A DNA stretch of 64,000 bases. Origin: Cliona cf. orientalis (taxonomy: Eukaryota > Porifera > Demospongiae > Clionaida > Clionaidae). The translations under genes and the position numbers were made by a program. The stretch lies in contig OZ005706.1 in NCBI GenBank assembly GCA_963930775.1, forward strand, positions 6,254,428-6,318,427, given 5' to 3'. A model generated the notes under the pieces. The model saw nothing but the letters and a program-made list of their open reading frames with translations, did not search any database and was not told the origin of the DNA. Within the stretch, counting starts at the first letter, position 1; each line of letters opens with the position of its first letter. Positions 7,268-50,378 of the stretch are shown here, piece by piece.

Positions 7268-10200
7268 CTATAGCTCTTGTTTGGGTGGTGGTTGGCTAGT
7301 GAGAGGCAGTCCCTTATCTTCACTGACACCAACCATAGCAGGGTCAGCATCACTGCCACTTCGCTGATGGCTAGATGATTTCTTGTCTTGAGTTTGTGAA
7401 GATGAGCTTCTTTGTCTCTCCTGGTCTTGATAGATTTTAATCTGTGAAAGCAGCTTCTCCTTGGCTACTTTCACTGTTGCTTCAATCTGCAATGGTAGAA
7501 TAAAAGCCATGGAATCATTTTGTTAATACTGGCACCAAGCATGCACTATGCATTGCACTGACAGGGGCTGATCCAGAGGGAATAAATAGGGTTGCTATAG
7601 CTCCCCCCCCCCCCCCCCCCAACAATGCTCAAGCAAGCTACCAACTAATTTACATGTACTTTACATGTAAATCTTAGGCCCCATCAACAGGGAATAAATC
7701 GTACAACAATGCTAACTTGATAGTTCTTTAATATCGTATGCATGGAGAGAAGAGGGAGCCAGGTTAAGAGCCTAGGGGGGCTAACCTGATCTAGTGCTTG
7801 AATAAAGCTGTAGAGTGTGTCTTGCCAGTGGTGCAGCTCTTGGTCTCGACTCTTCAACTGTTCTTGGACTAAACTAATCCACTCATCGTGTGAAGATGGA
7901 GGGGAGGACTTGTCAACAACTCTAAAGGCAGGAGGACAGAGAGAGGAAATAAGATACCGAAGAAATTAAATATATAGTACTGAGTGGAAATACGATACCA
8001 ATCATAATAATTATTTGTAGTACTATAGCGGCATACCCAGACTGAGTTAAAAAAGTGGAGATTTGTACAAAAATTTTTAATGGTATATTGTAATTTGGGG
8101 ATTGACATCCACTGCAGACAGATGGCTGCACGTATTCACTACAGCATTCAAAATCATTGCTACATGCGTTTAATTGCAATTGAGTCCAGTACATACATGT
8201 ACGTGTATAATATTATATACCTGTACTGTTGTTGACTGTTGTCTGTGTGAGTTGGAATTGGTGATCTGTAACTCATAAGGTGATGGTAGAGAACCATGTT
8301 GGATAGAATCAGAATACCAAGTCTGGGTGAAAAAACAATAGCATAATACGTTATACATGAAGTGCTTTATTATTATAGAGAATAATTATAAAAATGAGAG
8401 TACACATTGAATGCAAGGGTCTCCCCTTTAGTAGAACTCACAGTAATGTCAATGCCAGGTTAACTCGGGGAAAAGAAGCACCTTTGCCTTTCCTCTCACC
8501 ATTTTCAAACACTGCAGCATCACAAGATAAAATTAATAATGTACATGATTGTACATCAAATGACCACCTACCACTGTCTTCAGTTGAGTTCATGTCGAAT
8601 GACCTGAGAGACCTGGTGGAGGAGATGCTTGTTCTGGAGAGGCCAGCTGCAGCTGGTGCTGGTCCAGTCATGGCCACTGCAGCTGCTCCTGTGCTCCCAT
8701 CTTCCCCAACACCCTGACCAGCTGCTGCCTGGATCCCCACCGCACCGGATGACTGACTCTGAACTGCCCCCGATGGACGGCGCTTGCTCTTCAGGCGAAG
8801 GGCGTGGCGTGAAGCTCTCCGGTGAGCCTTCTTACGCTTGGCAGGGAGAGACTCAATGTGCTCCTTCAGGACTTGATCTACCGTGGTAAACCACTGCATC
8901 ACCTCAACAGGCAGGCACTCCTATACCTATCCCAGTCAAGAAACATAGCTGGCCTTGAGAACCAAGGCAAGGAATAGTACATGTTTCAGACATGTAAGAT
9001 AAAATTAAACCACATGGTACAATGAAATTAAACTGTATATATTATATAGCTAGCCTCGATATCTGTAGCTTAAGTTCATTAGGGAAGGGACGTTACCAAT
9101 TTAGTGACTTCCTTGTAAAGGATAACATGGCATTGTACATGAATGTGTACACAACACTGCCATGACCTGCATGCACTATACTATATTATTATAATAGTTA
9201 TCACTGACATATTATTATGCGTATACGTACATGTACCACAGTGACTACGCTGAAACTGAGTAGCATAATAATGTACATTGTCATAGTACACATGGATCAG
9301 TATGCATAGTAATAAGCTTAAGGCACCTGCACATGTGCATGACTCACCTAAGTGTGCATGTGTAATAGTTTCTTATACCATCACCAGCGTTTCTCTCTAT
9401 CAAGTCTGAAATAGCTAATTAGGGGAGAGTAGAGAAAATCTCAACTGATGTAGTTGTATAATCGTATATGTTAGAGTCTCTTGCCATAAACTGGAGTACC
9501 TGGCCCATGCAGGTCAGCACACTATAAATTGTTCCAAGGGTGTCTGGATTAGAGGGATCCACTGTTACGTATGTACACGCATGTATGGATAAGCTATTAG
9601 TATTATTATTATGTTAGTGACTGACTCTTGACTAGTCCCCAGCATGTCTTCTTGAACTTGATGTTGGCCATGATGCGTAGCCTGGTCTGGTTGTGGGTTA
9701 TCCGGGTGATGCAGTAGCGACAGGCAACAAAGAACATATCACTGTAAGGAATATTGTGGTTCACAACCTGAAAATGTAAAATAAATCCATGACATTGTAC
9801 ATATTACATCAGTTGTGATTGTGTAGCATTAACATGTACATGCAATTGTGTATATATACATAATAATAATATGCCTCTATGGACACAGGAATGATTTCAT
9901 AATACATGTATAATGCTTTATTTCTTCTCTAGAGTATAAATAGCTAGAGCAACCCTTCTCAGTGCTGCTGATTCTTTCTATCAAGGACTGCTGTGGTTAA
10001 CCCTATGGCCATGGCCGGGGAGCTGTGCTGTCATACATAATTATACTTCAGTATCCACGATGAGCTTGTGTGTAGCTGAGGTCCCTCAGACGAGTACCGT
10101 CAGACTGGCTATGCCACTCTCCAATCTCTAGATCTGACATATACATTCATGTACATGTAAAATAGGCACTGCATGGAGTGCTACCTCTTTATACTCTTGC

Positions 10201-11589: not shown

Positions 11590-12420
11590 AGCTTTCGTTG
11601 AATTAATTTTTTTGAGTGAATTACTTAATTTTTCGATGTTGTGAAGTTCATGAACATCAGTAACATTAATTTTAGTGTTCTCCAAGTTTGTGACCCACTC
11701 CTTCAAGCTAATTAATGAACATGTCTTGGCAGGCTGAATCAGCTTCATGTTGCGAGTCTCTCCTGGTTGTGTTGATGATTCTCACAGTGCAATAGGGTGA
11801 CAATGGCACTCTCACTTGAAAGCCGCTCGTTCCAATAGTAATTTCTACTCTTCTGTTATTGTGTCCAAACTGATGAAGCTTTGTGGTGGAGTAAAGGTTG
11901 TGGTGTAACACTGATGCTTGCTGATGTTCCTTTGTGAGGCATTAGACACATGAATGCGTAGTGTCTTTCATATCATTCTAGCTGTGTTAGTGTCTTTGAG
12001 ATCTTAATTGGATATTGACAGTCACAGAGCCACTTTGTTCAATCGAGATTTCTTACTCTTCAGCCATTGAAGTAAGGGCTGGCACAAAAATACGAATTCA
12101 ACACTCAATGATTAGCAGCTTTGATAATCATAGAATCACTGTAACTGAATAGATCTGGCTTGTAGCTAGTGCTTTGAGTCCATGAATTCATTCTGCTGGG
12201 TTTTCTTGAGGTGCAATAACATAATCTAATTTTAGGATTGATATCATTGACTTCACTAGGCTTCATAGTATCTGCAGTAGGCATAGATCCAGGTTTAGGT
12301 ATGTGGGACTCTGAAAGGACAGTTAGTGGTGAATCTTGCTGTTTTAGCTTGGAGGTGAAATCTGTTACTCTTTGCAGGTGGGCTGAATCTTCATTGAGCT
12401 TAAGTTCTTTAGTCACACAT
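11590..12420 (-). pseudogene. Relic of a COR/death-domain exon (U1)
   Basis: About 240 bp past the end of gene 1. Fragments match the last exon: YKPDLF near 12130-12180 corresponds to HYKPGLFIHDDL, a GSMPTADT-type linker follows, and RRDSQHEADSACQDMF near 11710-11770 corresponds to RMESHHQANSACRKMF of the C-terminal death domain. Frames are broken. It is an old duplicate, present behind genes 1, 2 and 3. Confidence 0.6.
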
Positions 12421-12659: not shown

Positions 12660-15395
12660 TCAAATAGCGCATTTTCCCCGCCTACGTCTTGTAGTCGGCG
12701 AGTTGTCATGAAATTGACTCTCTTGGGTGCCACAAATGATGTTATTGAGTTCGTGGGCAACTCTAGGCAAACCAGCTTCATCAAGAGCATCGATGAGAGT
12801 TCTCCAAGTTATTGGTTGACGACCAACCCCTTCAAGCCACTTCATGAACATCTTTCGACAAGCTGAATTTGCTTGATGGTGAGATTCCATCCTAATTGTT
12901 TCAATGAGATGACTCTTAAGGTCCAGCTGATCGGCAACAGATTCCCACTTAAAAGCAATTTGTTCGATCACGTCGATTCTTTGGTTGTTGAGCTTCAAAC
13001 ATCCAAGCTGACGAAGGGTGGGTACAGAATCAATATGAAGATCTGCATTAGGAGATGTCTCCACTTCTGTTGGATTGATGCTTGCTGATGCTCCTTGTTG
13101 GGGCACTAAACGTATAGTTGGCGATGATCCGTGGTAGCTACGCTTGGGTGTAGACTCTGATACTCTTTGTTGACTGCGCTTTGGAGTACTACTCTCTCCT
13201 AGATCGATAGACTTGGAAGGACTCTGTTCGGATGTAGAATCAAGAGTCGTCGGTGCAGATCTTGAATCAGATGACACTGCTTGCTGGTTCAGTGTGAGAG
13301 CAACTGACGGTGGGAGTGGTTTGCTCTCCGTGGGTCTAGGTGAGGCTGTGTCTTTATCTTCCTTCAACCATATTCTTTGATTTGTGACTACCTTACCACA
13401 TCCGTCTCTGCTACAGATCCATAGAGTCTTTTCAGCCCCAATGGTTGCTGCATGGAACACAGGGTGATCACATGGACAGCCAAAACAAAGAGAAGGCTCA
13501 TGGTAGTCGTAGTTGAGAGCTATTGTTGCTTTATGTATTGCATTGATGATACCATTTCGAATAGTTCCACAAAATGTTGTAAATGTTTCCAACTGGGAAG
13601 CAGTATCAGCACTGATCTGTACATGCACTTCAATATATTCGAAGGAATCGATCACCACAATGGATCCAGGATAACCTGAAACTTTGAATTGGACACAATT
13701 GCGATAAAGACAGCTAGGCGTTAACCCATCTGCCTCCAACTTGAGACTCCAAGGATGTGGATGGATGTTGTCTTCAGAGAGTAGGGCAACCACAGACGCA
13801 CAAAATACTCCAAGAAGTGGGCCACCATGTTTAGGAAATGTAAGCACGAGAGGAGAAGCAGCGGATGAGTTAAAAGGAACTCGGTGCACATCTATCTCCT
13901 CCTTTTTCAACCTTCTAAGTAAGGCAGGCACAAAGACTTCTGTCTCATTGAAAGCAGCAAAGATGAGAAGCTTCTTGAATAGGACGATCAGATCATCGTG
14001 GATAAACAGACCTGGCTTGTAGTGCTTTTGAAACTCTTTCTGTGCAAGGAATTCAGCAGAGACAAGAGCGTGGTCACAAAATCTCTGCCACTTCTCATCT
14101 GGCATCTCATCAGTCGCTAATGTACCATCTTGCAGCTCATGTACGGCTACAACCAGCTCCGTTACCTTGTCAAGAAGAACCTGAGCACTAGCAAAGACAA
14201 CTCCAGGAAGGATGTCGGGATAGTAGAAGATAAGGTTGAGCTGATCGAGGTATTTAAGTGCATCATCCAAGGCAGACTCATCTTCAAAGTGGAGACTCTC
14301 AGCAGCTCGAAAGCACTCATCTCCGCTCAACACATCTCTATCCAAAGCTTTAGCCAGATCTTCAAGCACACCTTCCAAAGCATGCCACTGCAGGGGAATT
14401 TCAACAGCTTCTGCTGCACATTCAGATGACACTTTAAGTCGGATGCTCTCAGCAGTGCTTTTCTCCTCCTTCCCAGGATTTTTAGCATTCAGAGCATAAA
14501 TCAGCTCTTTCGGTGGTGCAGGTCGATAGTACAGCACTTCTTTTTTGAATTCTGGAAGAAGCAATGTAGCCAGTCGCTCATTTTTATCCTTCCTGGTTTC
14601 AGTGGTACACATATGCTCCTCGTCTTTGTGTGTACCAACAATCATGATTTTAGGTGGTTTGCTCTCGTCTGTAGCTTTCTGAGAGCGAATCACACGAAGA
14701 CAGTGCTCAAGCATTTGCTCATAGGTCTCAGAGCTCTGATAAGGCTTGCAGATTGCCTTACCATCAACATGATACTTGATCATTGGACGAGCTCCAAGCT
14801 CCTCGTTGAGCTTAAAGACAAAGATATAGAGAGAAGTACCTCTGAGAAAGACGGGGAGGATCTCAAGAAACTGTGGCTGACCACCACAGTCAGAAACCTG
14901 CACCCTTTTGATCTCAACAACACCACCCTTTGCCAAGCAATCTTCCATACGAGAAAGGAGGTCGTTGTAGGTTTCAAGGGATGGAAGAACAGGAGTGACC
15001 TCACCTTTTGATCGCACTGCAACAGCTAGGCTGGAAGCACTACTGGCACCTGAAGCTATTTGCTGTGTGGAAGAATGGCCTTCTACAGCTATTCCCTTTC
15101 TATCGTGTGGAGCAAGACTACGCGGGTGTTGGATTTGAGGTGCTGCATGAAATTCAACCGGAATCTGTGAAAGATCCACATCCTCATCGATGTCAGCAGA
15201 GCAGGCTTGGGCGATCACAAGATCTTGCTCTTTTCGATTGAGTTTCTTCCATTGCGATGGAGTCATCTCGACACGATAGACTTTCACCGGACGTACAGCG
15301 AGTGGTGTGCTGGAATACTCATCAGGAGGGTCGATATCTAAGATGACATGCATAGTGCATGTCTTCCCAGAACCAGCACACCCAAACAAGACAAC
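12660..15395 (-). CDS. Gene 1 exon 7: GTPase, COR-like and C-terminal death domain
   Basis: Single 2736-nt last exon, acceptor TATAG|GTTGTC, ending CAI-TGA. It begins VVLFGCAGSGKTCTM (Walker A). About 160 residues later comes DCGGQPQFLE (G3), followed by IFVFKLN and IMIVGTHKD (G4-like). A COR-like helical region with KYLDQLNLIFYYPD follows. Near 13450-13500 a cluster FGCPCDHPVFH and LWICSRDGC resembles a zinc knuckle (inferred). A Ser/Thr/Pro/Gln-rich linker leads to a death domain with LRQLGCLKLNNQ, WESVADQL, SACRKMFMKWLEG and PITWRTLIDALDEAGL. Confidence 0.9.
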   Translation of the reverse strand, partial: VVLFGCAGSGKTCTMHVILDIDPPDEYSSTPLAVRPVKVYRVEMTPSQWKKLNRKEQDLVIAQACSADIDEDVDLSQIPVEFHAAPQIQHPRSLAPHDRKGIAVEGHSSTQQIASGASSASSLAVAVRSKGEVTPVLPSLETYNDLLSRMEDCLAKGGVVEIKRVQVSDCGGQPQFLEILPVFLRGTSLYIFVFKLNEELGARPMIKYHVDGKAICKPYQSSETYEQMLEHCLRVIRSQKATDESKPPKIMIVGTHKDEEHMCTTETRKDKNERLATLLLPEFKKEVLYYRPAPPKELIYALNAKNPGKEEKSTAESIRLKVSSECAAEAVEIPLQWHALEGVLEDLAKALDRDVLSGDECFRAAESLHFEDESALDDALKYLDQLNLIFYYPDILPGVVFASAQVLLDKVTELVVAVHELQDGTLATDEMPDEKWQRFCDHALVSAEFLAQKEFQKHYKPGLFIHDDLIVLFKKLLIFAAFNETEVFVPALLRRLKKEEIDVHRVPFNSSAASPLVLTFPKHGGPLLGVFCASVVALLSEDNIHPHPWSLKLEADGLTPSCLYRNCVQFKVSGYPGSIVVIDSFEYIEVHVQISADTASQLETFTTFCGTIRNGIINAIHKATIALNYDYHEPSLCFGCPCDHPVFHAATIGAEKTLWICSRDGCGKVVTNQRIWLKEDKDTASPRPTESKPLPPSVALTLNQQAVSSDSRSAPTTLDSTSEQSPSKSIDLGESSTPKRSQQRVSESTPKRSYHGSSPTIRLVPQQGASASINPTEVETSPNADLHIDSVPTLRQLGCLKLNNQRIDVIEQIAFKWESVADQLDLKSHLIETIRMESHHQANSACRKMFMKWLEGVGRQPITWRTLIDALDEAGLPRVAHELNNIICGTQESQFHDNSPTTRRRRGKCAI

Positions 15396-18300
15396 CTATA
15401 ATTTAAAGTAATTGGATAGTTTCTTCACAACTTCTATTTGATAGTAGCTTATTTAGCAATAATATAACAAAGAGAGAGCCAATGCATGGGGAAAATTCGC
15501 ACTATTACTAGTAGCATGTAACCTTGGAGTGTCCTATGAGTTGAGTGATTATGTTTGTATATGCAGACAAAATTAATTCTGAGTTAATAATTCAATTAGA
15601 CCAACTGGCTGTGATGGGAGTGACCATAACTGATAATTGAGTATGCTTATGATAGTACCGTGAAAAATTTCCAGTGTTGGAAGAGCACCCCATGCATCAA
15701 ACAGAACATTATAATATATTATTTGTTCTGCTACCAATGATAAAGAATCAACCGATTTGCTTGTCTGGCTGAACTTATTGCACATTGTTATGTTATTGTA
15801 AATGTACATGATAGTTGGATTTGAAACTACTACAAGAAGATTTTAAAAGTTGCCATAGTATGTATACACAAATGCTTGGTGCTTGTGTCCAGCTATCTAG
15901 TAGTCTTTCTAAAACTGTGCATGTGGCCACAGCCAACAAAGCCATGTATGCACTGTCAGAAGCATGTGTTACAAAAGCTTAATATACCCATACTCCGCGA
16001 GGAGAAAACAATCTCTAATGTGTGTTATGTGTATATGTGAGCCTTTGTTGCCATTTTGTTTCAATGTACAGTGGAGCCTCTCAAATAAAGGATATCTATC
16101 TTTCTATAGCTAATCCAGACACTCACTATGCCACCACATCGTTTGTATTAAAAGGAACCCACTGGAGCCTCTTTATGATGATTAATTGTAGGGGTAGACA
16201 CCTCAGTGCATACAATTACAGTAATCGTGTCTTTATGTATACTGCAATAGGATTTTATGGTTATGATTTATTGTGTCATTTGCTGACCATCAGTGCCTTT
16301 CTCACTCTCTGCTGAGCTCTTGACTGGTTCTCACAGCCAGCACTTCAATTCAAGGTATGTACCTTCAAGTTGAAGGTAAAGGATATGCAAAAAAATTGAA
16401 GCAATAGTCCGATCTGGTCATCAGTGAACAGCAACTCCAAGCATATACCGTAGTGTCCCAGGTAAGCGCTCATGGGCGCTTAAACATAAATCGCAATTAT
16501 GGCCCACATGGGACTTATCCAAGATATAAATTCCACGTATTTGTATAGAAGGTACTATATTGATCCCTTAAAATGCTATACATGGGCTCTTACCCAGGAG
16601 TTGGCACTTTACGGTAGTAGTCACCACACTTCTAAATTATCATTATGCTCATGTATGCACACCGACAGCACACAATTTAGGCATAGAGCATGCACAGTAG
16701 CCAGCACACAAGTCTGGATAAGTTCCTTCTACATACACGTACACAAACACATATATACACCAGCGCCAAAACACAGCTTGTAATTATTTTTTGATATACA
16801 CAACAAAACAAATCACACAACATAATTATTATCAAGGCATAATGGCTACATACACAATAATATTATGCCGATAACCTCAGCCATAGCATACCTTTGTGAT
16901 GCTTGTCTTTCCCTTTCCTCTCTTCATTGCCATCTTCAACTGCCTCCTCGTCTCACTAGTACCTAGTGATAAAACAATAGTTACTGAAAATTATATCAAG
17001 CCCAGCTATCTCAGTGTTAACTCAATTGAAGAGAGAGTGTAGACTCCAGATCAACCACCCCCCCCCCCCCCCCCCCACACACACAAAAGATTATTGGGCT
17101 CTGAATTATACACTATAGGAAAGCTCCCATGGGGATAAAGCTTCAGTAGTTTATTTCTCTACAAAATCAATGAAATAGTGTACAATATACATGTATGTAG
17201 ACACAAGAGGAAACCCCCATAGATTATTGTCAATCTAAAGCACAGGGTTATCATAGCTGTACAGCTAAATTATTATAATAGCTGATTTCATTGAATTCTT
17301 TAGTACACATTTTCACACATTTCATGTCCACATATGACTTCCCTTTTTGCAAACTGGATTGTGTCCATGCCCATACAATTTATTTTCACAACAACAGAAT
17401 TGTATAATTATGCATACACAGTATACCTTTAAAATATTTATTTTGTACATTCTCAAGCACTCCATACTCATACGTCATGTACAGGGCATAGCACACCAGC
17501 TCCCATGATGGAGCTGGATGCCCATCGAGAAAATACTGCATGACTGCTGACTGGCGCTGGGGGAGGTCAGGGTACAACTGCTCCATCTCCTTCACCTTTG
17601 AGTCTGGGATTTGAAGATACCCTGGCAGCCCCAGTGGTCCATTGCTCCAGTCCTTCACATGAGCTAGTAGACTGCATAGGTTGGTTGCAGTTAGGGAGGG
17701 CTCTAATGGAAGGGAGAGAGACATACAACAGAAACACAGAAATAGAGTGATGTCATACTACTTTTGATACATGACTGTACTGCCATAGGCCTATCAAACA
17801 GTACACGTACAAGCATAGATTGGTTAGAATCTTGACATGCTAGCTGATAAACATCACAAACTTATTAAAAGCAGCATCAACTAGTTGTATGGCATACATT
17901 TGCTGGTTTCTTTGGTAGCCATGGGTGGAATAGTATAGTTACTGAAAAAATAAGCTGAATTCTTACGTGTCATTGTGCTATACAGAGTATAAGCATGTGG
18001 CTAATTTTACAACCTTGTTGCATTGGAGATGATGCACCAGACGAGTGTACATACATGCACATGAAGAATACATGGACAACATATTGCTTGATACAAACAC
18101 ACATAGGTAGAGTGATTTTCTCATTATTATCTCATTACTGTGGTGGTTAGTGTGGGGGCTCACTTCAGCTAATCCCAATCTCTAAGGTACAGTCATCATG
18201 CAAATACCACCCCCGGCCCTCTCCATCTCCATGAAGTCAAGTTGTTTGAGTAGCAAGCGTTGACTTCACCATAACTACATTAGCCATGTGCATAAAGTAG

Positions 18301-21300
18301 TTAGCTAGACATGTAGAAGTCATGTACAGAATTCATTTCAGTAGCACTTCATTATTCATTAATCATTTCACACACTTAATAGCTGTTGGTCAGACTTTGT
18401 CTACAGTCTACACATGATACTAATATCAATTTTATTATTGATCAACACATTCAGCTGTGCCATGCATGGGATATGTACTGCATGGACAAACAATGTGTTT
18501 ACTGGCTAAATTTTAAAATGGATAAATTAACTTCATCAGTGTTTACCTAAGCACAAAATTAACACTAAATGAGTGAGCATGGAAATTCATGAGCTCTGTG
18601 TATTATCAACAACATACCTAATTTTCTCTTCAAATATTTCTTCACTTCCTCAAGAGCCTTCCCTTGCTCACGGTAGAAACACTGTCCAGCAACCGACTCC
18701 CAGGTCGGAGAATAATCTTTTAACATAAAGTCAGTGATCCCCTGCTCCCTCGAGATACCAGAATCTAATGATCCTCCAAGAACCCACCTCAGGTTGTCAT
18801 CACTCAGTGATGCCAGTGCAGAGTGTAGGTTAGCACTGGTCAGGGTGGCATCTGTAGATATGTAGTACATCACATTCCACTATTCAAAACAACATGTACA
18901 GTATATTCCCCTACATGTAAAGCCATTAAGAGTACACTAAAGGTCATTCCAGTAGCCATAGTTATTAGTGTACACTACACAGGCTATTGAAAGTCACAGC
19001 TACTATACAAGGAGTACATAATGAATGGTGAACCTCAAATTATTATATAATACAACTGATCAAAAAATAGACTAATGTGTACAACAGGTTAAAAAAGTCA
19101 TCGCTAGCAGTGCCAAAGTACTTTGATATCAGATAATATTGAAACTAATGCACTTTAAAGGGAAAAAACATATCCCTGTCAGGGTTACATACAGGATTTT
19201 TTTTCTGGGGGGGGGGGGGGGGGGGGGACTCAAGCTGGGGAGGAGAAATCCCAGTGCGCCCCCCCCCTCTGTATGCAACCCTACCGGTGCAAACGTCTTA
19301 TTAAGAGTATAGAGATCAACTGCAATTCAAGGACCATAGATCAGTAGGCCACAAAATGGGGTGGCCTCTAATACTACATACGCAAATTAAACAATTCAAC
19401 TCTGCCCTTAGGTTAGATTGGATTCATTAAAATTCCAGGAATCGAATTTCTTACGTTGACAAGATCATATGTTGTAACAGATACATTTCCAAGAAAAGCA
19501 CACTACCTCCACGTGGCCTTGTCTTCTTGTAGCTGACAGTGTAAAGATGGTTTAAAGAGTGCCACTTTAATCTGGCACCTTCGAATTTGTTGTGATAAGA
19601 ACGCTTCCAGGTAAGGCCACTAGCACACACTAGGACAAAAATGCCTCTGTATACACATGTAGCTACCTGTATGACACTCTTACATTGGATTGGATTTGCT
19701 GAAAATGTTATTTCACTATATTACGTTAGATTGCAATTGGATTAATAAAAGTTCCAGAATCACGTTAAAAGGCATCATAATAATAATATTATAATATTGT
19801 AAACTACGGTAATATTCTATAGCAAGAGATCGAAAGTCATTGATGTTGCTATATAGTGCAGTAGCTAGAGCAGCTCTGCGCTGCGCTATCCTGCCGAAAA
19901 ATGGGCGGGGCCATGTGTCCTATAAGACGGCCATGCCATAATGTGTACTACAGCATCACAAGTACATACCACAAGGATGTTAGCAGCCCTCAGTATTAGC
20001 TATGGTCTATGGTACCAAAATAAAAGATTGTATGAACTTAATGTTGCTGCCACACTTCCACCACTCTATCAAAACTTTCTAGCTACATCCCCGCAAGTAT
20101 CAACACAAAGAAAGATACCAGAATGTTATGATCAATACTTTGCAAAATGAAGGGGCTCAGGCTTCAAAAAGGGTTAATAATTATTATTATAGCCAATTAG
20201 GGATGTCTGGGGGAATGCTCCTCGAGGAAAATTTCAATTCTTAGAGAGTGTGTTTGGGGACTTCTGATAGTGGTCAATATAATGTCATTTAGGGTATACA
20301 GAAGTGGCCTTGGAAATGAGTATGTGTATCGTAGTCAAATTGGCTACTAGATCATTTCTTTTATAACCAAATTTCATACTCAATAGCCACAGTATATACA
20401 TCAGGGTTTCATTTAGGATTTTCGTCAAGGGGGGGGCAAACACGACAATTCCAGAGTTAAGGGGGGGCAAAGACTATAGTATGTTTTTCCATCTGTGAAG
20501 AATGATGTTGTGCTCATTAACTTCATTATATTAGGGGGGTCTGGGGGTATATGCTCCCCCAGGAAAATTTTTTAATGTTTCAACCTCTGAGACTGTTTCT
20601 GGTGGCTTCTGAGCACTCAGATGGGGAAAGTCTGTCAGTAATATCCACTGGTTCCCCTCTATTTCAAATCAAATGTTGCGAGGATGTGGGATATGTCTCC
20701 TACCGCGCGTAGCGCGAAGCTTTAGCTAATTTATGGTTTAAAAATGAGCAAAACTGCTGCTTTGGACACTCACCGTTTAAATCTTTTACTTGTGCATGTA
20801 TTGCATATGTATGGATGGTGGCTACTCTCAAGGGGGGGCAGCCAGCTTCCAAGGGGGGGCGAATGACCCCTCCCGCCCCCCCCTAAATGAAACCCTGTAC
20901 ATGTTATGTTGCACTAATGAGAGACACACACACACTAGCTGCATAATAGAGTTCAATCAGTGCCTGCAGCTCAACAAGCAGCATTCCTTTCACCAAGCGA
21001 CCATTACCTACTAGCTACACTCCTCCCACTTTCACCAATTTGGCGATCAACGTGACTAGATAATCGCCAGAAGTCATTGGATAATCATTTTGGCGACCGT
21101 CTGGGGAACCTACAATGTCATGTGGATTAGCACACAACCTCTATGGGTATGGGGGCATGCTGTCCCAGACGCTCTGAGATTCTGATGCATTCTTTGGCAC
21201 TAATCTGACCCTGTTACAATAGTGTAGTATTGTTATTACTACTATGTAATAATTGTGATAATTCTTTAGCCTATTTTGTGTAATTACTTCCATAGTTTAA

Positions 21301-23577
21301 AAATAGTTTAAAAATCCCACATCAAAGACAACCAGGCTATCTATATAAGGCCGTAAGTACTGCATTAATTTTGATCGGCTAAGCCTATCAATCACACCTA
21401 GTAATGCCACGAATTGTTCAAGCTCAGTTTCTGTCAAATCATAAATAATTGTTGACACGTGGGGTTATGCTTTGGAGAGACCTTGTCGCAAAATTGACCT
21501 TCTCATTCGCACAACATTATTGTTCCTGTATGCATAATGATTCTCTATTACTGCTTTAATTTACACTTGCAGCATGGATGAAACAGAAGCTTATAGCTAA
21601 CAGTGACTGCTGAATGTTACCAAAGTTGAATGGTAGCTACCGCCCACTCATTTTACCTTGTATTGGCTCCAACAAGTGATGCATCTCTTGGGAAATGGCT
21701 CCTAAACCCTCACGGTCAAGCCAGAATGCAATCCATCGGTAGGAAGCGAAGGAACATCTCTTCATCCAAAAACGTATTGCCTCCATCAAACAATCGTCTC
21801 CATTACTGCAACGTTGACGTATCTCCTCACATTTAGAGTATGAGATCGACAGTATCAACTGAGCCAGCCACTTCCATTCTTTGTTGGTCTTCTTTAGTAG
21901 TTTGAAGACAGTGTCGGCAGTTAGTCGGACACCTGCAGGGGAGAGGGAGAGGGAGGGTAAACAAAATAATCAACAATTCATCCTTATAGATACAAAAATA
22001 ATTTCAATTTTTGTGAAAAGTGTGTGTTTTTTCTGGTAAACGTCGGCAATTGTTCCAATAATTATAAATGTTATGAGAATTTCATAAAATGCTAATTTCT
22101 TGGATCATGCATTGTATTCTATTAACTACGGCATCTTTTTCTGTATGTATATTATTTAACACGTATCAGGCACTCTCATTATTTTCTTTGTGTTAAACAT
22201 ACATTGCAAGAGCAGGAAGAGGCTGGAGAATGAGACTACACTAAACCAGATACACATACTAGAGTCAGCAGCACATGCACTCATCTATTCCAGTATGCAT
22301 AGCATCATGCAGGTGAGGGGAGATGGCTACTCCTGTCAAGATAATGACTTTCATTCCTAGTCTACCTAATTGACAATCATAATTTCCTTATTAGGGCATC
22401 AATGATTAGCCTAGTGGATTCATTATGCATACACAGAATACCTCAGTGCAGTTGAACATGTGTATAGTGGTCACTGTGTAAGGCAGCCACTTCCTTATTA
22501 CAGCCACCTGGATCATTAACCCAAATTAGGGATTTACCCTACTTTCGCTGAGAATTGTACCCAAAATAATACTATTAGAATCCTAGTTTGAATTGCTAAA
22601 ATTAGTACCTGCTAAATGCAATATTTCCTAAATCACCTAAACTATGACATTGTATTAAATTTGTAGCCCTAAGGAGGGGACACTAAAATGGCCTTGACCG
22701 TTCTGACCATGCACGCCTAAATCTTCATTTTGATCAGCCTTCTCCACTGTTTGTAAGAAATATTGATGAAGCTGCCAACAAACCATGCACGCACAAAGGC
22801 TCAGCCACGCCCCCTGGTCTGTCCCACTGCTGAACCCCCCAAACAGTTCCTTGACTATCTGATGCACCAACGCATCTCTGAATACATTGCCTATTGCTGC
22901 TGGCATCAGTGTAACATACACTGTGATATGATATAATACATTTGTAGCTAGATAGAGACATCCACCCCCACATCCACCCCCTCCCCCCTAGTCTCGTGCC
23001 CAGCCCTCTTCATGCATACGCGAGAAAGGGTCTGGTCAAAAGGGTCGTACTTACGCGTCCGGCTGGAATGTAATAATTGGCAATTCAGGTGTGCGTACAA
23101 TAGAAACTAACCGCCACTTCCGTACCGTGTGCAATACCGGGCCCTTGCAATACTGAGCGCACGCGCGTACGTACGGCTCATGCATAATTACATTCCACTA
23201 ATGTCATGTGACCGTGGTTCTGCAACCTGATTGGGCCGCAATATACGTACCTCGAGGACAAGGAAGTGCGACCCTTTTGACCAGACCCTTTCTCGCGCGT
23301 GCATGAAGGGGGCTAGGCACACGAGACTACCACCCCCCCCCCCCCCCCCCCCAAGCCGGGCCAACAGTTTTTAGTAGTAACAACCAGAAATCCGCGAGTC
23401 CCTGAGGCTTACTAGTTATAGAAATTAAGAATACACGGTGCAGTCGAGCTACAGCCTTTCATGACATAAATAGTCTCGGGTAGCCACGTACATGCCAGGT
23501 GAGCTCTACGTACCTTTTCGAGGAGTGCCTTGGCTTTTCTTGAGGCTAGCCGAGGGAAGAGCACTTCTCGCTGCCAT
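12660..23577 (-). CDS. Gene 1: multi-death-domain ROC/COR-like GTPase
   Basis: This gene is intact and predicted to encode 1289 aa. Exons are 23514-23577, 22708-22920, 21657-21932, 18618-18851, 17427-17702, 16892-16962 and 12660-15395. Phases are 1,1,1,1,1,0 and the sum is 3870 nt with no internal stop. Layout: residues 1-21 basic N-terminus; 22-92 unrecognised helical segment; about 93-184, 185-262 and 263-354 three death-fold domains; 355-378 Lys/Arg-rich linker; P-loop GCAGSGKT at 383-390; DCGGQ (G3) near 547; VGTHKD (G4) near 631-636; COR-like region; a CxC/His/WIC cluster; a Ser/Thr-rich linker; C-terminal death domain about 1175-1270. The motifs identify a P-loop GTPase. The domain order suggests a ROCO-related receptor or scaffold of cell-death or innate signalling (inferred). 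The gap between G1 and G3 is about 160 residues, which is unusually long. No LRR or kinase domain is visible. Confidence 0.85.
15396..16891. other. Intron before the GTPase exon (gene 1)
   Basis: About 1.5 kb with no supported gene. It contains a plus-strand ORF of 97 codons near 16022-16315 that recurs at 30404-30700 but is inverted in gene 3, so it is not constrained as protein. AT-rich otherwise. Confidence 0.5.
16892..16962 (-). CDS. Gene 1 exon 6: basic linker
   Basis: 71-nt exon that changes the phase from 1 to 0. It encodes a Lys/Arg-rich linker (RRQLKMAMKRGKGKTSITK) that runs straight into VVLFGCAGSGKT of the last exon. The same exon is at 31267-31337 (gene 2) and 54915-54985 (gene 3). 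Confidence 0.75.
17427..17702 (-). CDS. Gene 1 exon 5: death-fold domain C
   Basis: 92 codons, phase 1 at both ends. It starts PSLTATNLCSLLAHVKDW, followed by a variable Gly/Pro loop, LQIPDSKVKEMEQLYPDL, and PAPSWELVCYALY, a classical death-domain pattern with an acidic helix and a Ser-Trp-..-Val signature. It has two more loop residues than U1, U3 and U4. Confidence 0.75.
18618..18851 (-). CDS. Gene 1 exon 4: death-fold domain B
   Basis: 78 codons, phase 1 at both ends. It starts ATLTSANLHSALASLSDD and ends KKYLKRKLG. SPTWESVAGQCFY matches the conserved Trp-bearing helix of death domains. The loop after SDD is the longest of the four copies (LRWVLGGSLDSGISREQGI). Confidence 0.7.
19180..19283. 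mobile_element. CAGGGTTAC element, internally deleted (U2)
   Basis: Only the ends and the G/C tracts remain, 104 bp. Confidence 0.6.
19507..19629 (-). CDS. Candidate cassette exon (U2, gene 1)
   Basis: 123 nt, acceptor CCTAG|TG, donor GGAG|GTAGTG, phase 1 at both ends, open. It would add 41 residues between death domains A and B of gene 1. Confidence 0.3.
20402..20897. mobile_element. CAGGG-TIR nonautonomous DNA element
   Basis: 496 bp with inverted ends CAGGGTTTCATTTAGGATTT / CCTAAATGAAACCCTG and a 5-bp target duplication tacat. It is absent from U1, U3 and U4 at the same place, so the empty site is seen directly. No coding capacity. Confidence 0.85.
21657..21932 (-). CDS. Gene 1 exon 3: death-fold domain A
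   Basis: 92 codons, phase 1 at both ends, acceptor CCTGCAG|GT. Key pattern: TADTVFKLLKKTNKEW, then a Cys-rich helix (CEEIRQRC), then FWMKRC.FASYRWIAF, typical of the last helices of a death domain (basic helix, Pro/Ser loop, W..IA). The U2 copy has WLDREGLGAI where U1 and U4 have a three-residue-longer loop. Confidence 0.7.
22708..22920 (-). CDS. Gene 1 exon 2: unrecognised helical segment
   Basis: Encodes 71 residues, including IGNVFRDALVHQIVKELFGG and a Trp/Cys-rich stretch (ACMVCWQLHQYF). Acceptor CACAG|TG; donor CATG|GTCAGA, phase 1. I chose this donor because it is kept in all units and fits the next exon; the frame beyond it differs between units by a one-base indel. Predicted mostly helical. 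It could be a diverged death-superfamily fold, but I do not recognise it. Confidence 0.6.
22989..23329. mobile_element. MITE with TAGTCTCGTG ends
   Basis: 341 bp with inverted ends of about 60 bp, starting TAGTCTCGTGCCCAGCCC and ending in the matching CACACGAGACTA. GC-richer than its surroundings. Only in U2, in the intron between exons 1 and 2 of gene 1. The flanks are C-rich, so the target duplication cannot be read. Confidence 0.8.
23514..23577 (-). CDS. Gene 1 exon 1 (start)
   Basis: Encodes the first 21 residues, starting MAARSALPSAS, rich in Ala, Ser, Lys and Arg. It ends at donor AAAAG|GTACG in phase 1. No signal peptide is visible. Confidence 0.7.
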
Positions 23578-26389: not shown

Positions 26390-26890
26390 CGTTGAATTAA
26401 TTTTTTTTGAATGTTACTTAATTTTCCGATGTTGTGAAGTTCACGAACATCAGTAACATTAATTTTAGCGTTCTCCAAGTTTATGACCCACTCCCTCAAG
26501 CTAATTAATGAACATGTCTTGGCAGGCTGAATCAGCTTCATGTTGCGAGTCTCTCCTGATTGTGTTGATGATTCTCACAGTGCAATAGAGTGACAACGGT
26601 ACTCTCATTTGAAAGCTTCTTGTTCCAATAATAACTTCTACTCTTCTGTTGTTGCGTCCAAGCTGATGAAGCTTTGTGGTGGAGTAAAGGTTGTGGTGCC
26701 ACACTGATGCTTGCTGATGTTCCTTTGCGAGGCATTAGATACATGAATGCGTAGTGTCTTTCATATCAATCTCAGCAGTGTTAGTGTCTTTGAGATCTTA
26801 ATAATTATTGGATATTGACAGTCACAGAGCCACTTTGTTCAATCAAGGTGGGCTGAATCTTCATTGAGCTTAAGTTCTTCAGTCACACAT
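26390..26890 (-). pseudogene. Relic of a COR/death-domain exon (U2)
   Basis: Same relic behind gene 2, with about 340 bp of the middle deleted (join near 26848). The death-domain remnant ADSACQDMF is recognisable near 26510-26560. Confidence 0.55.
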
Positions 26891-39526: not shown

Positions 39527-42500
39527 CTATAGGTCTTGTTTGGGTGGTGGTTGGCTAGTGAGAGGCAGTCCCTTATCTTCACTGACACCAACCATAGCAG
39601 GGTCAGCATCACTGCCACTTCGCTGATGGCTAGATGATTTCTTGTCTTGAGTTTGTGAAGATGAGCTTCTTTGTCTCTCCTGGTCTTGGTAGATTTCAAT
39701 CTGTGACAGCAGCTTCTCCTTGGCTACTTTCACTGTCGCTTCAATCTGTGAGGGTAGAATAAAGCCACGGAATCACTTAAAGTTAATACTGGCACCAGGC
39801 ACTATGCATTTGCAATGACAGGGGCTGATCCAGGGGAGTGAATAGTCTCGCGTGCTGGTGATGCAATACATCCAGCGCTGCGGAAGTAGGAGGGTGTGGT
39901 TTACGAGACTAGGGAGTGAATAGGGTTGCTATAGCTACCCGCACCCCCCCCCCTCAATGCTCAAGCAAGCTGTCATCTAATTATGTAAATCTTAGGCCCC
40001 GTCAACTGGGAATAAATAAATCGTACAACAATGCTAATTATATTACTTGACAGTTTTTTTAATGTCGTATGCATGGAGAGAAGAGGGAGCCAGGTTAGGA
40101 GGTTACTAGGGCCCAGGGGCTAACCTGATCTAGTGCTTGAATAAAGCTGTAGAGTGTGTCTTGCCAGTGGTGCAGCTCTTGGTCTCGACTCTTCAACTGT
40201 TCTTGGACTAAACTAATCCACTCGTCGTGTGAAGATGGAGGGGAGGACTTGTCAACAACTCTAAAGGCAGGAGGACAGAGAGAGGAAATAAGATACCGAA
40301 GAAATTAAATATATAGTACTGAGTGGAAATACGATACCAATCATAATATTTGTAGTACTATAGCGACATACCCAGACTGAGTTAAAAAAGTGGAGATTTG
40401 TACAAAAATTTTTAATGGTATATTGTAATTTGGGGATTGACATCCACTGCAGACAGATGGCTGCACGTATTCACTACAGCATTCAAAATCATTGCTACAT
40501 GCGTTTAATTGCAATTGAGTCCAGTACATACATGTACGTGTATAATATTATATACCTGTACTGTTGTTGACTGTTGTCTGTGTGAGTTGGAATTGGTGAT
40601 CTGTAACTCATAAGGTGATGGTAGAGAACCATGTTGGATAGAATCAGAATACCAAGTCTGGGTGAAAAAACAATAGCATAATACGTTATACATGAAGTGC
40701 TTTATTATTATAGAGAATAATTATAAAAATGAGAATACACATTGAATGCAAGGGCATTTAAATGTACAACAATAAAGGTCTCCCCTTTAGTAGAACTCAC
40801 AGTAATGTCAATGCCAGGTTAACTCGGGGAAAGGAAGCACCTTTGCCTTTCCTCTCACCATTTTCAAACACTGCAGTATCACAATACAAACAATGTACAT
40901 GATTGTACATGCACATCAAACAATCACCTACCACTGTCTTCAGTTGAGTTGATGTCGAATGACCTGAGAGACCTGGTGGAGGATATGCTTGCTCTGGAGA
41001 GGCCAGCTGCAGCTGGTGCTGGTCCAGTCATGGCCACTGCAGCTGCTCCTGTGCTCCCATCTTCCCCAACACCCTGACCAGCTGCTGCCTGGATCCCCGC
41101 CGCACCGGATGACTGACTCTGAACTGCCCCCGATGGACGACGCTTGCTCTTCAGGCGAAGGGCGTGGCGTGAAGCTCTCCGGTGAGCCTTCTTACGCTTG
41201 GCAGGGAGGGACTCAATGTGCTCCTTCAGGACTTGATCTACCGTGATAGTATACCGTAAAGGTCAAAAGTTCGATCATAATTCCTAGGGTAACCAGCCCA
41301 TCACCTCAAAAACCAGCACACCTACGTAGTACCTACAGGTATCCCAACCAAGCAAAAGTCACTTCCTTGTATCCGATAACATGATATTGTACATGTATAT
41401 GAACATGTAGTGCGTACCACAAGAATTGATACATATACCACTACATTGAAAGCATAATAATAAGATACATGCATATATACATACATGTACACATACGAGT
41501 ATATGCCTATTGAATAAGGCACCTGCACATGTGCCTGACTCACCTAAATGTGTGTAATAGTTTCTTATACCATCGCCAGCATTTCTCTCTATCAAGTCTG
41601 AAATAATTATTAGGGGAAATCTCAACGGATGTAGTCGTGTAATCATGTACATGTATGTAAGAGTCTCCTGGTAAATCTAGAGTATCTGGCCCAGCAGATT
41701 AGCTAGTATATCTCATACATGTACATAGCACATGAAAGTTAAATTTCCACCACCCCCCTCCCCCCCCCCCCCCCCCCCCCCCAAAATTATCGGGTAAGGC
41801 ATTCAGAATTAATTATATGTACATGTAGCTATGTACGAAAGAGCAAATTATTGGTATATTATGTTAGTGACTGACTCTTGACTAGTCCCCAGCATGTCTT
41901 CTTGAACTTGATGTTGGCCATGATGCGTAGCCTGGTCTGGTTGTGGGTTACCCGGGTGATGCAGTAGCGACAGGCAACAAAAAACGTATCACTGTAAGGA
42001 ATATTGTGGTTCACAACCTGAAAATGTAAAATAGAAGCAACATTTGATATCAGTTGTGATTGTGTAGCATCCATTATAATCTATATGCAATTGTGTACAT
42101 GTACATCAATATGCCTCTACACAGGGATGACTTTACTATACATGTACATACATATCTAATGCTCTATTTCTTTTCTAGAGTTCAAATACATGTACATGTA
42201 GTTAGAGCAACCCTTCTCAGTGCTGCTGGTTCTTTCTATCAAGGACTGTTGTGGTTAACCCTATGGCCATGGCCATGGAGTTCCACTGTCATACAATGTA
42301 CATGTACATGTACAGTGTACCTCAGTATCCACGATGTGCTTGAGTCCAGGCTGACCCATCTTGGAGTAGATTTGGTGGTCGGTGGTGTGGGAGAACTTTG
42401 GACCAAAGGAGTAGTTGAGGGCCAGTGTGTAGCTGAGGTCCCTCAGTCGAGTACCATCAGACTGGCTGTGCCACTCTCCAATCTCTAGATCTGTTAAGTA

Positions 42501-48559: not shown

Positions 48560-49450
48560 ATTGAGCTTTCGTTGAATTAATTTTTTTTAATTTTTCGATG
48601 TTGTGAAGTTCATGAACATCAGTAACATTAATTTTAGTGTTCTCCAAGTTTACGACTCACTCCCTCAAGCTAATTAATAAACATGTCTTGGCAGGCTGAA
48701 TCAGCTTCATGTTGCGAGTCTCTCCTGATTGTGTTGATGATCTCGATCGATCACAGTGCAATAGGGTGACAATGGCACTCTCACTTGAAAGCCACTCGTT
48801 CCAATAGTAACTTCTACTCTTCTGTTGTTGCGTCCAACCTGATGAAACTTTGTGGTGTAACACTGATGCTTTCTATAAATGTTCCTTCGCGAGGCATTAG
48901 ACACATGAATGTGTGTGTCTAGTATCTGTAGTGGATCAGAGTAAACGTTACACTGATGCTTGCTGATATTCCTTTGTGAGGCATTAGACTCATGAATGCG
49001 TAGTGTTTTTCATATCAATCTCAGCAGTGTTAGTATCTTTGAGATCTTAATTGGATATTGAGAGTCACAGAGCCACTTTGTTCAATCGAGACTTCTTTCT
49101 CTTCAGCCTTTGAAGTAAGGGTTGGCACAAAAATACGAATTCAACACTCAAAGATTAGCAGCTTTGATAATCATAGAATCACTGTGACTGAATAGATCTG
49201 GCTTGTAGCTTACTAGTGCTTTTTAGTCCATGAATTCATTCTGCTGGGTTTTCTTAGGGTGCAATAAAATAATCTAATTTCAGGATTGATATCATTGAAT
49301 ACCTTCACTAGGCTTCATAGTATCTGCAGCAGGCATAGATCCAGGTTAATTTGGGTATGTGGGATTATAAAAGGACAGTTGGTGGTGAATCTTGCTGTTT
49401 AAGCTTGGAGGTGAAATCTGATACAGTGCTCCTTGCAGGTGGGCTGATCC
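48560..49450 (-). pseudogene. Relic of a COR/death-domain exon (U3)
   Basis: Full-length relic behind gene 3. It also contains a short internal duplication near 48880-48990 that repeats the ATT-CCT-TTG-TGA-GGC-ATT region. Confidence 0.55.
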
Positions 49451-49709: not shown

Positions 49710-50378
49710 TCAAATAGCGCATTTCCCCCGCCTACGTCTTGTAGTCGGCGGACTGTCATGAAATGGACTCCCTTGAGTGCCATCAATGATGTTATTGAGT
49801 TCGTGGGCAACTCTAGGCAAACCAGCTTCATCAAGAGCGTCGATGAGAGTTCTCCAAGTTATTGGCTTACGACCAACCCCTTCAAGCCACTTGATGAACA
49901 TCTTTCGACAGGCTGAATCTACTTCATAGTGGGACTGTTTCTTAATCGTATCAATATGATGATTCTCAAAGTGCAGCTGATCGGCAACAGATTCCCACCT
50001 AGAAGCAATTCGCTCGATCACATTGATTCTTTGGTTGTTGAGCTTCAAACATCCAAGCTGGCGAAGCTTGGGTTTGGAATCAATATGTAGACCTGCATTA
50101 GGAGATGTCTCCAATTGTGGTGAGGGATTGATACTTGCTGATGCTCCTTGTTGGGGCACTAAACGTATAGTTGGCGATGATTCATGGTAGCTACGCTTGG
50201 GTGTAGACTCTGATACTCTTTGTTGACTGCTCTTTGGAGTAGTACTCTCTCCTAGATCGATAGACTTGGAGGGACTCTGTTCGGATGTAGAATCAAGAGT
50301 CGTCAGCACAGATGGGGAATCAGATGACACTGCTTGCTGGTTCAGTGCGACAGTGACAGATAATGGTGGTGGGATGGT
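49710..50378 (-). pseudogene. Gene 3 C-terminal death domain, cut off by TAG
   Basis: An open frame, in phase with the GTPase part, continues from the TAG to the CAI-TGA end. It carries the Ser/Thr-rich linker and a death domain with LRQLGCLKLNNQRINVIE, SACRKMFIKWLEG and PITWRTLIDALDEAGL. Without readthrough or removal of the stop by splicing it would not be made with the GTPase. Confidence 0.75.

Follow-up and report, generated by a model that had tools for sequence, protein, structure and literature searches.

Variable N-terminal death folds on a ROCO-type GTPase family in the sponge Cliona cf. orientalis

INTRODUCTION

Which part of an intracellular receptor can vary? In the textbook picture, leucine-rich repeats (LRRs) are the variable sensors of such receptors and death domains are homotypic adaptors. 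A gene of the sponge Cliona cf. orientalis raises the question of whether death folds may take the variable part. It lies on the minus strand of the window analyzed here, a stretch of 64,000 nucleotides (C18:6254428-6318427) of a 216.8-Mb genome, and its predicted product carries three N-terminal death-fold-like domains, a ROC-COR GTPase, a Cys/His cluster, and a C-terminal death domain. The N-terminal death folds are variable and the C-terminal death domain is conserved in the same proteins. We propose, with a probability of roughly one half, that these genes form an NLR-like intracellular recognition family built on a ROC-COR switch, whose variable part consists of death folds instead of LRRs.

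RESULTS

Death-fold exons and P-loop exon

Six exons, named by our own numbering (which has no e3), splice to one open reading frame that ends after 1219 codons including the stop, with intron phases of 1, 1, 1, 1, and 0 in order (Table 1). The preliminary description of this DNA had counted seven exons. A candidate extra exon at 19440-19560 was rejected: 7 of the 13 other copies match it at 85-96% DNA identity, about intron-like, and no frame-keeping exon is apparent there.

The same exon series was found four times within the window by tblastn of each exon product, the leftmost copy being cut by the window edge. In the stretches examined for 14 copies on contig C18, all 14 have e7, 11 have e2, and 6 have e1 (five at 91-100% identity, one at 74% over 19 amino acids [aa]), while e4, e5, and e6 each occur in 12; e2, e4, e5, e6, and e7 stand together, in order, in 9/14. 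Three copies without e2 in the stretch examined have an e2-type exon further upstream, and two (g5320 and g6350) lack e4-e6. Copies of e6 are 100% identical in 10 cases and 96% in 2. The donor GT is present in 30/30 exon copies of e2, e4, and e5 and the e7 acceptor AG in 14/14. There is no Met ahead of the P-loop in e7, so this exon is unable to start a protein. In 7/8 distant copies, the e6 motif is continuous with the P-loop exon, with no intron between them; the eighth (L036) is less clear.

This arrangement holds genome-wide. Among the matches listed, to which the counts in this paragraph refer, 97/141 P-loop exons are preceded within 5 kb by an e5-type exon on their own strand, and 0/141 by one on the opposite strand. 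When the e5 places were shifted 200 times, the mean was 2.2 and the maximum 15 (true lengths were used for five contigs and 8 Mb for all others). On C18, a same-strand upstream e2-type exon accompanies 15/15 P-loop exons and an e5-type exon 13/15. An e5-type exon also lies within 10 kb downstream of 22/141 P-loop exons (median, 8.8 kb) and is probably that of the next gene. Together, these genomic data confirm that the death-fold exons and the P-loop exon, as predicted, belong together.

Domains and folds

The GTPase with a COR-like region that had been noted before is borne out by structure prediction. A Foldseek search for e7 gave 12 matches at an E value of ≤0.001, all of them LRRK1, LRRK2, or Roco (E values of 9e-11 to 8e-5). 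By Pfam, the Roc profile matched 12/12 family members at an E value of ≤1 (best, 0.00089; this copy, 0.0091) and the COR-A profile 8/12 (best, 0.001); this copy is below the cut-off for both. ROC and COR-A are thus clear by predicted fold though below the cut-off in Pfam, and the model supports assignment of the protein as a ROCO-type GTPase, with the G motifs in ROC and COR directly after it. The Cys cluster followed by a C-terminal death domain was likewise found as described. The cluster is a possible metal-binding ribbon. Compared with solved relatives, the C-terminal death domain matched the PIDD death domain at an E value of 0.011, with RIPK1 and PIDD among the closest; the domain itself falls into at least two classes.

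Three N-terminal death folds had been claimed, and their support differs. AlphaFold2 and a structural search identify e5 as a six-helix death domain whose closest fold is FADD. Pfam matched 0/12 e5 members at an E value of ≤10, and at the same threshold neither the e2 nor the e5 alignment found a solved structure by profile; the assignment of e5 was made by fold prediction. The e2 product had a Pfam Death value of 0.13, with Death_3 matched in 2/11 members (best, 0.011), and e4 had no Pfam match. Both align to e5 in hhalign (E values of 2e-6 for e2 and 2.5e-6 for e4; probability of 89% each), and this profile homology supports e2 and e4 as death-fold-like domains.

The reported lack of LRRs agrees with our searches. 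Pfam gave no LRR, kinase, or NACHT match in e7 or in 15396-23577, which was scanned in all three minus-strand frames; the frame scan is a weak negative, as it gave no Pfam match at all at an E value of ≤1, also missed the N-terminal death folds, and is insensitive to split exons. NACHT and LRR had no match in 12 family members either. TRADD-N had no Pfam match in e7 or the upstream frames, where a dedicated profile was not run.

Diversifying selection in the N-terminal death folds

Selection was assessed with our own codon site models (M2a against M1a) on 10 close C18 copies each of e2 (of 11 found), e4, and e5 (of 12 each) and on 12 of 14 copies of e7. The distant copies g6436 and g6458 were omitted, and e2 of g5280 lacks about its first ten codons. 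Twice the log-likelihood difference (2dlnL) was 120.9 for e2, with a ratio (w) of nonsynonymous (dN) to synonymous (dS) change of 17.6 at 12% of sites; 69.0 for e4 (w of 11.1 at 14% of sites); and 49.1 for e5 (w of 5.2 at 18% of sites). In ten null simulations each, the maximum was 2.4 for e2 and 6.2 for e5. Codons 1-300 of e7 showed no diversifying selection in 12 copies (2dlnL of 0.1). The selected residues, numbered in each exon product, are 24, 25, 28, 70, 73, 74, 75, and 77 in e2; 21, 22, 28, 37, 44, 56, 60, and 62 in e4; and 21-23, 28, 29, 55, 72, and 76-78 in e5.

Pairwise comparisons of the close C18 copies gave a mean dN/dS of 1.62 for e2 (40/45 pairs above 1) and 1.43 for e4 (35/45 above 1); for the whole of e7 the mean was 0.32 (0/66 pairs above 1), with 0.03 at codons 1-50, which hold the P-loop. 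These pairwise values are from tblastn blocks that include a few intron-derived codons, which were trimmed before the site models. All 35 blocks of e2, e4, and e5 are free of stops. Diversity at first and second positions is 0.44-0.64 at selected codons versus 0.06-0.08 elsewhere. For codons 801-850 of e7 the ratio averaged 1.73 and no single pair exceeded 1, as saturated pairs fall out of the dS mean; these codons were set aside for separate tests of the C terminus.

Introns are a fair neutral yardstick for e4 only, with tight flanks of 0.06-0.07 versus a dN of 0.12; divergence is very low upstream of e5 (0.013), and the yardstick is poor downstream of e5 and for e2. The 60-base stretch upstream of e5 (approximately 17715-17775 and matching places) diverges by 1.3% over 45 pairs, below the silent sites of e5. 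An in-frame Met close to it is a possible candidate for an alternative start.

A second array and the conserved C-terminal death domain

A second array, on another chromosome (contig C3), shows the same pattern. Its e5-type exons are 39-47% identical to that of the window. From 20 chosen exon pairs, 19 death-fold exons were used (one partial match was left out), and they gave a 2dlnL of 130.1 with 11 selected sites. The C-terminal death domain was tested in two sets of six copies, where w was 0.62 and 0.22 (2dlnL of 12.5 and 0.0) and no selected site fell inside the domain in either set.

Sites from e5, C3, and e2 were mapped on the e5 model. Of the C3 sites, five fall on e5 sites (1.2 expected), and of the seven mapped e2 sites, four do (0.76 expected); these counts are independent of patch borders but dependent on the alignment. 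The loop between helices 1 and 2 with helix 2, or the end of helix 5 with the helix 5-6 loop, hold 9/10 e5, 8/11 C3, and 6/7 e2 sites, tallies that are descriptive because the borders were set after the sites had been seen. One e5 site lies in helix 4.

Contact faces and probable exchange between copies

In filaments of MyD88, helix 6 and the helix 5-6 loop make up the type IIb face, and type III contacts use the helix 1-2 and 3-4 loops (PMC7054835). In RIP2, the usual IIb groove lies between the helix 1-2 corner and helix 6 with its preceding loop (PMC6168553). By analogy, the variable loops of e2 and e5 would belong to the type II and III contact faces of published death-fold filaments. The type IIa stretch (the end of helix 4 and the helix 4-5 loop, FLDGHPAPSWE in e5) is among the most conserved, with the exceptions of e5 residue 55, which is selected, e5 residue 61 (G/E/W), and e4 site 44. 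Variation that is mainly one-sided points, though not firmly, to a partner different from the paralogue, and recognition of a changing partner explains it no less well than homotypic nucleation does.

The copies appear to be mosaics. Correlation between the distance matrices of individual exons is poor (Spearman, -0.21 to 0.40), except for two adjoining e7 segments (0.66). Codons 1-400 of e7 differ little (dN of 0.004-0.028 and dS of 0.05-0.22 by window), and codons 540-680 are of two types, 40-46% apart. The poor correlation and the two types make sequence exchange between copies likely; low signal can also lower matrix correlations, yet it leaves the two types unexplained. Such exchange probably spreads variants.

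Family size

Three genome searches were made, and the best 150 scored matches were listed for each. Among the matches listed, the P-loop end of the window protein found 141 places (294 candidates), the G3-G4 stretch of a distant copy 150 (the best 150 of 419), and a COR-A profile 150 (the best 150 of 290), 147 of them over the Pfam cut-off. Merging at 2.5 kb left 408 distinct ROC/COR places on 18 contigs, a count that includes broken copies and in which a gene with pieces more than 2.5 kb apart could count twice. More family places may exist, since the candidates exceeded the matches listed. Triple death folds were checked in part of the 408 places. In broken copies, the open frame of e7 stops at residue 362 (g5320) or 417 (g6232).

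Contig C8 (2.6-9.6 Mb) holds 95 ROC/COR places of the merged list, mostly of another clade. Stray e2-type exons, one with a stop, were seen at C19:2049804-2049920, C19:2115601-2115720, and C18:5240406-5240675, with no listed P-loop exon close by downstream.

TABLE 1 Features of the gene, by position in the window. Conservation is over 12 family members; the motif names G3 and G4-like are those that we take to apply.
Feature	Position	Strand	Description
Exon 1 (e1)	23514..23577	-	Start ATG and short N terminus (MAARSALPSASLKKSQGTPRK-); 21 codons + 1 nt; donor GT
Exon 2 (e2)	21657..21932	-	First death-fold-like domain; phase-1 exon
Exon 4 (e4)	18618..18851	-	Second death-fold-like domain (78 aa), on the third exon of the series
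Exon 5 (e5)	17427..17702	-	Third N-terminal death fold
Exon 6 (e6)	16892..16962	-	Linker (GTSETRRQLKMAMKRGKGKTSITK) running into P-loop
Exon 7 (e7)	12660..15395	-	911 aa + stop, single open frame; ROC-COR, Cys/His cluster, linker, C-terminal death domain
P-loop GCAGSGKT (G1)	15360..15383	-	Three glycines and lysine invariant in 12/12
G3 motif DCGGQ	14877..14891	-	D and GGQP invariant in 12/12; Pfam Roc match 164-197
G4-like motif GTHKDE	14619..14636	-	GTH.D invariant in 12/12
COR-A region	14106..14396	-	Pfam PF16095 0.0062, below cut-off; fold match
Cys/His cluster C-x-C...H...C	13395..13478	-	Over 12 rows, invariant first C and H and nearly invariant second and third C; strands in model
C-terminal death domain	12738..12965	-	PF00531 1.1e-8, over Pfam cut-off

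Other features of the window

Downstream of three copies, at 11687-11779, 26486-26683, and 48649-48807 (minus strand), lies a piece resembling the C-terminal death domain (42-52% identity over 31-69 residues), which may be a relic or serve as an alternative last exon. The copy at 49713-52673 (minus strand) has its P-loop at 52673, an e7 split into open frames of 764 and 222 aa, and a repeated linker segment; it appears to be broken or differently spliced. Pieces encoding VASt (StAR-like lipid transfer; PF16016, E value of 6.3e-9) at 9624-9836 and 41874-42074 (minus strand) are 83% identical to each other, and a second, VASt-encoding gene seems to have been duplicated along with the array.

DISCUSSION

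The combination of a ROCO switch, variable N-terminal and constant C-terminal death folds, and large arrays with some broken members is the evolutionary profile of an intracellular recognition family, of which NLRs and LRR-ROCOs are examples. Strong differences between copies on one surface are what one would expect where rapidly changing partners are recognized, as by immune receptors. If the proposed NLR-like role is correct, the three death folds would use their variable surfaces to contact a rapidly changing partner, which might be a microbial factor or a non-self or guarded protein. By analogy with other Rocos, contact would alter the nucleotide state or the dimer of ROC-COR, and the conserved C-terminal death domain would then use homotypic contact to recruit a shared death-domain adaptor. 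All three elements (ligand, switch, and output) are inferred. We suggest more tentatively, and with some doubt, that the three death folds act as variable “paratopes” in series on the ROC-COR switch, forming a germline-diversified repertoire with the C-terminal death domain as its constant output. The selected residues are few and partly common to both arrays, which makes the hypothesis directly testable.

Several observations weigh against a recognition family. Death folds are normally adaptors rather than ligand sensors. For e5, the mean pairwise dN/dS is 0.71 and 8/45 pairs exceed 1. Flanking introns of e2 diverge about as much as the exon or more (tight flanks of 0.094 and 0.214 in alignable pairs versus a dN of 0.116), so that the site model, rather than an intron yardstick, carries the case for e2. 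Third-position diversity is raised at selected codons (0.20-0.32 versus 0.05-0.09 elsewhere), data with which locally raised mutation there would be compatible. The probable exchange between copies can inflate site-model tests. Other variation lies outside the death-fold loops: the linker codons 101-150 of e7 have a mean dN/dS of 0.46, with dN above dS in 15/66 C18 pairs; codons 540-680 of e7 are strongly diverged, so that the death folds are perhaps not the sole variable part; and two selected positions (99 and 103 of 106) lie in the tail that follows the C-terminal death domain (2dlnL of 12.5). In the C3 array, three selected sites are in helix 3, and the P-loop segment (17/19 loci, two having been dropped for stops) gave a weak signal with a 2dlnL of 12.3 and three sites, all in the GTPase linker.

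The main rivals are a barcode for assembly and escape from antagonists. With a barcode, the variable surfaces would restrict each copy to itself or a matched partner, either insulating paralogues or serving self/non-self recognition between individuals. This is close to the homotypic assembly suggested in the preliminary description. The selected sites fall at type IIb and III contact positions of known death-fold filaments, and a proposal has been made that RIP2 uses its type II contacts specifically for homo-assembly (PMC6168553). A self-matching code, however, would be expected to show variation on either face, and the facing type IIa segment is highly conserved, an objection limited by the variation at e5 residues 55 and 61 and e4 site 44. 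We consider a barcode unlikely.

Alternatively, the N-terminal death folds may be ordinary adaptors that evade microbial proteins which dock on or modify death domains. The selection data of the C18 and C3 arrays fit this equally, and NleB with FADD, RIPK1, and TRADD (titles of Protein Data Bank entries) is an example of a microbial effector acting on death domains. No such pattern is seen inside the C-terminal death domain of these proteins, however, and the face of an escaping adaptor must keep binding its own conserved partner. Escape seems rather improbable as the explanation.

Duplicated and partly dead genes might also vary through relaxed constraint or locally raised mutation rather than selection, which would accord with the broken copies (g5320 and g6232, and the absence of e4-e6 from g5320 and g6350) and with the raised third-position diversity. 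Relaxed constraint predicts a w near 1, not 5-18; moreover, the stop-free blocks, the conserved remainder of each exon, and the repetition of the pattern in C3 speak against both, and we regard this explanation as very unlikely. That the death-fold exons are an annotation artefact, or separate genes unjoined to the P-loop exon, is extremely improbable: the model was built from genomic sequence and 2/14 copies lack e4-e6, but phases, splice sites, and exon order are all consistent, no Met precedes the P-loop, e6 is fused to the P-loop exon in most distant copies, and same-strand e5-type neighbours far exceed the shift mean.

Selected N-terminal and conserved C-terminal death folds in one ROCO family would change the roles assigned to death domains and LRRs. 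If the paratope reading is correct, the family would be an animal repertoire with a basis other than LRRs, immunoglobulins, or lectins. Its members are also test objects for the long-standing question of how animals without adaptive immunity distinguish many microbes or non-self cells.

The architecture had been called possibly undescribed. This holds in part: ROCOs without LRRs, and ROCOs with N-terminal death domains, have already been described, the latter by mention on some ROCOs (PMC11378527). What we did not meet in the open-access literature, as far as its excerpts extend and with subscription papers and preprints outside this scope, is a ROCO family this large from a single animal, or N-terminal death folds of ROCOs under diversifying selection.

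The protein differs from NLRs (NACHT-LRR) in having no NACHT or LRR match and a ROC-COR by fold. It resembles PIDD1 and FADD in single domains, PIDD being near the C-terminal domain and FADD the closest fold of e5, but the full architectures differ. DAPK1 carries a kinase ahead of ROC-COR, plus ankyrin repeats. Rocos of the DAPK1 type have no LRR and a C-terminal death domain (PMC6337361), and the protein described here shares ROC-COR followed by a C-terminal death domain with no LRR match; it differs in its three death-fold-like domains, its many copies, and the lack of a kinase match, for which the upstream scan is insensitive. The sea-anemone novel gene NG3 encodes another animal protein that pairs Roc/COR with a death domain, but it also has a kinase and TIR (PMC5094078), neither of which was found here.

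Two sponge systems are comparable. Sponge NLRDs place an N-terminal death domain on a nucleotide switch and have undergone expansion in a sponge (PMC12909245); here, there is no NACHT or LRR match, the switch is a Ras-like ROC GTPase, and the death folds are variable. The TRADD-N proteins of Amphimedon have one to three N-terminal death-like domains and number 357, with a variable C terminus (PMC8195603), whereas here the death folds are the fast part and TRADD-N gave no match, a dedicated profile not having been run.

The LRR-ROCOs (MFHAS1/MASL1, brown-algal, and bacterial) share the ROC-COR core, and those of brown algae also have diversified N-terminal repeats: diversifying selection is reported at LRR sites, and the proteins have been proposed as candidate immune receptors (PMC11378527). 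Four brown algae have 9, 22, 31, and 47 ROCO genes, called more than in other organisms reported (PMC11378527). The sponge family carries death folds instead of LRRs, with 408 listed ROC/COR places versus 9-47 genes per brown alga.

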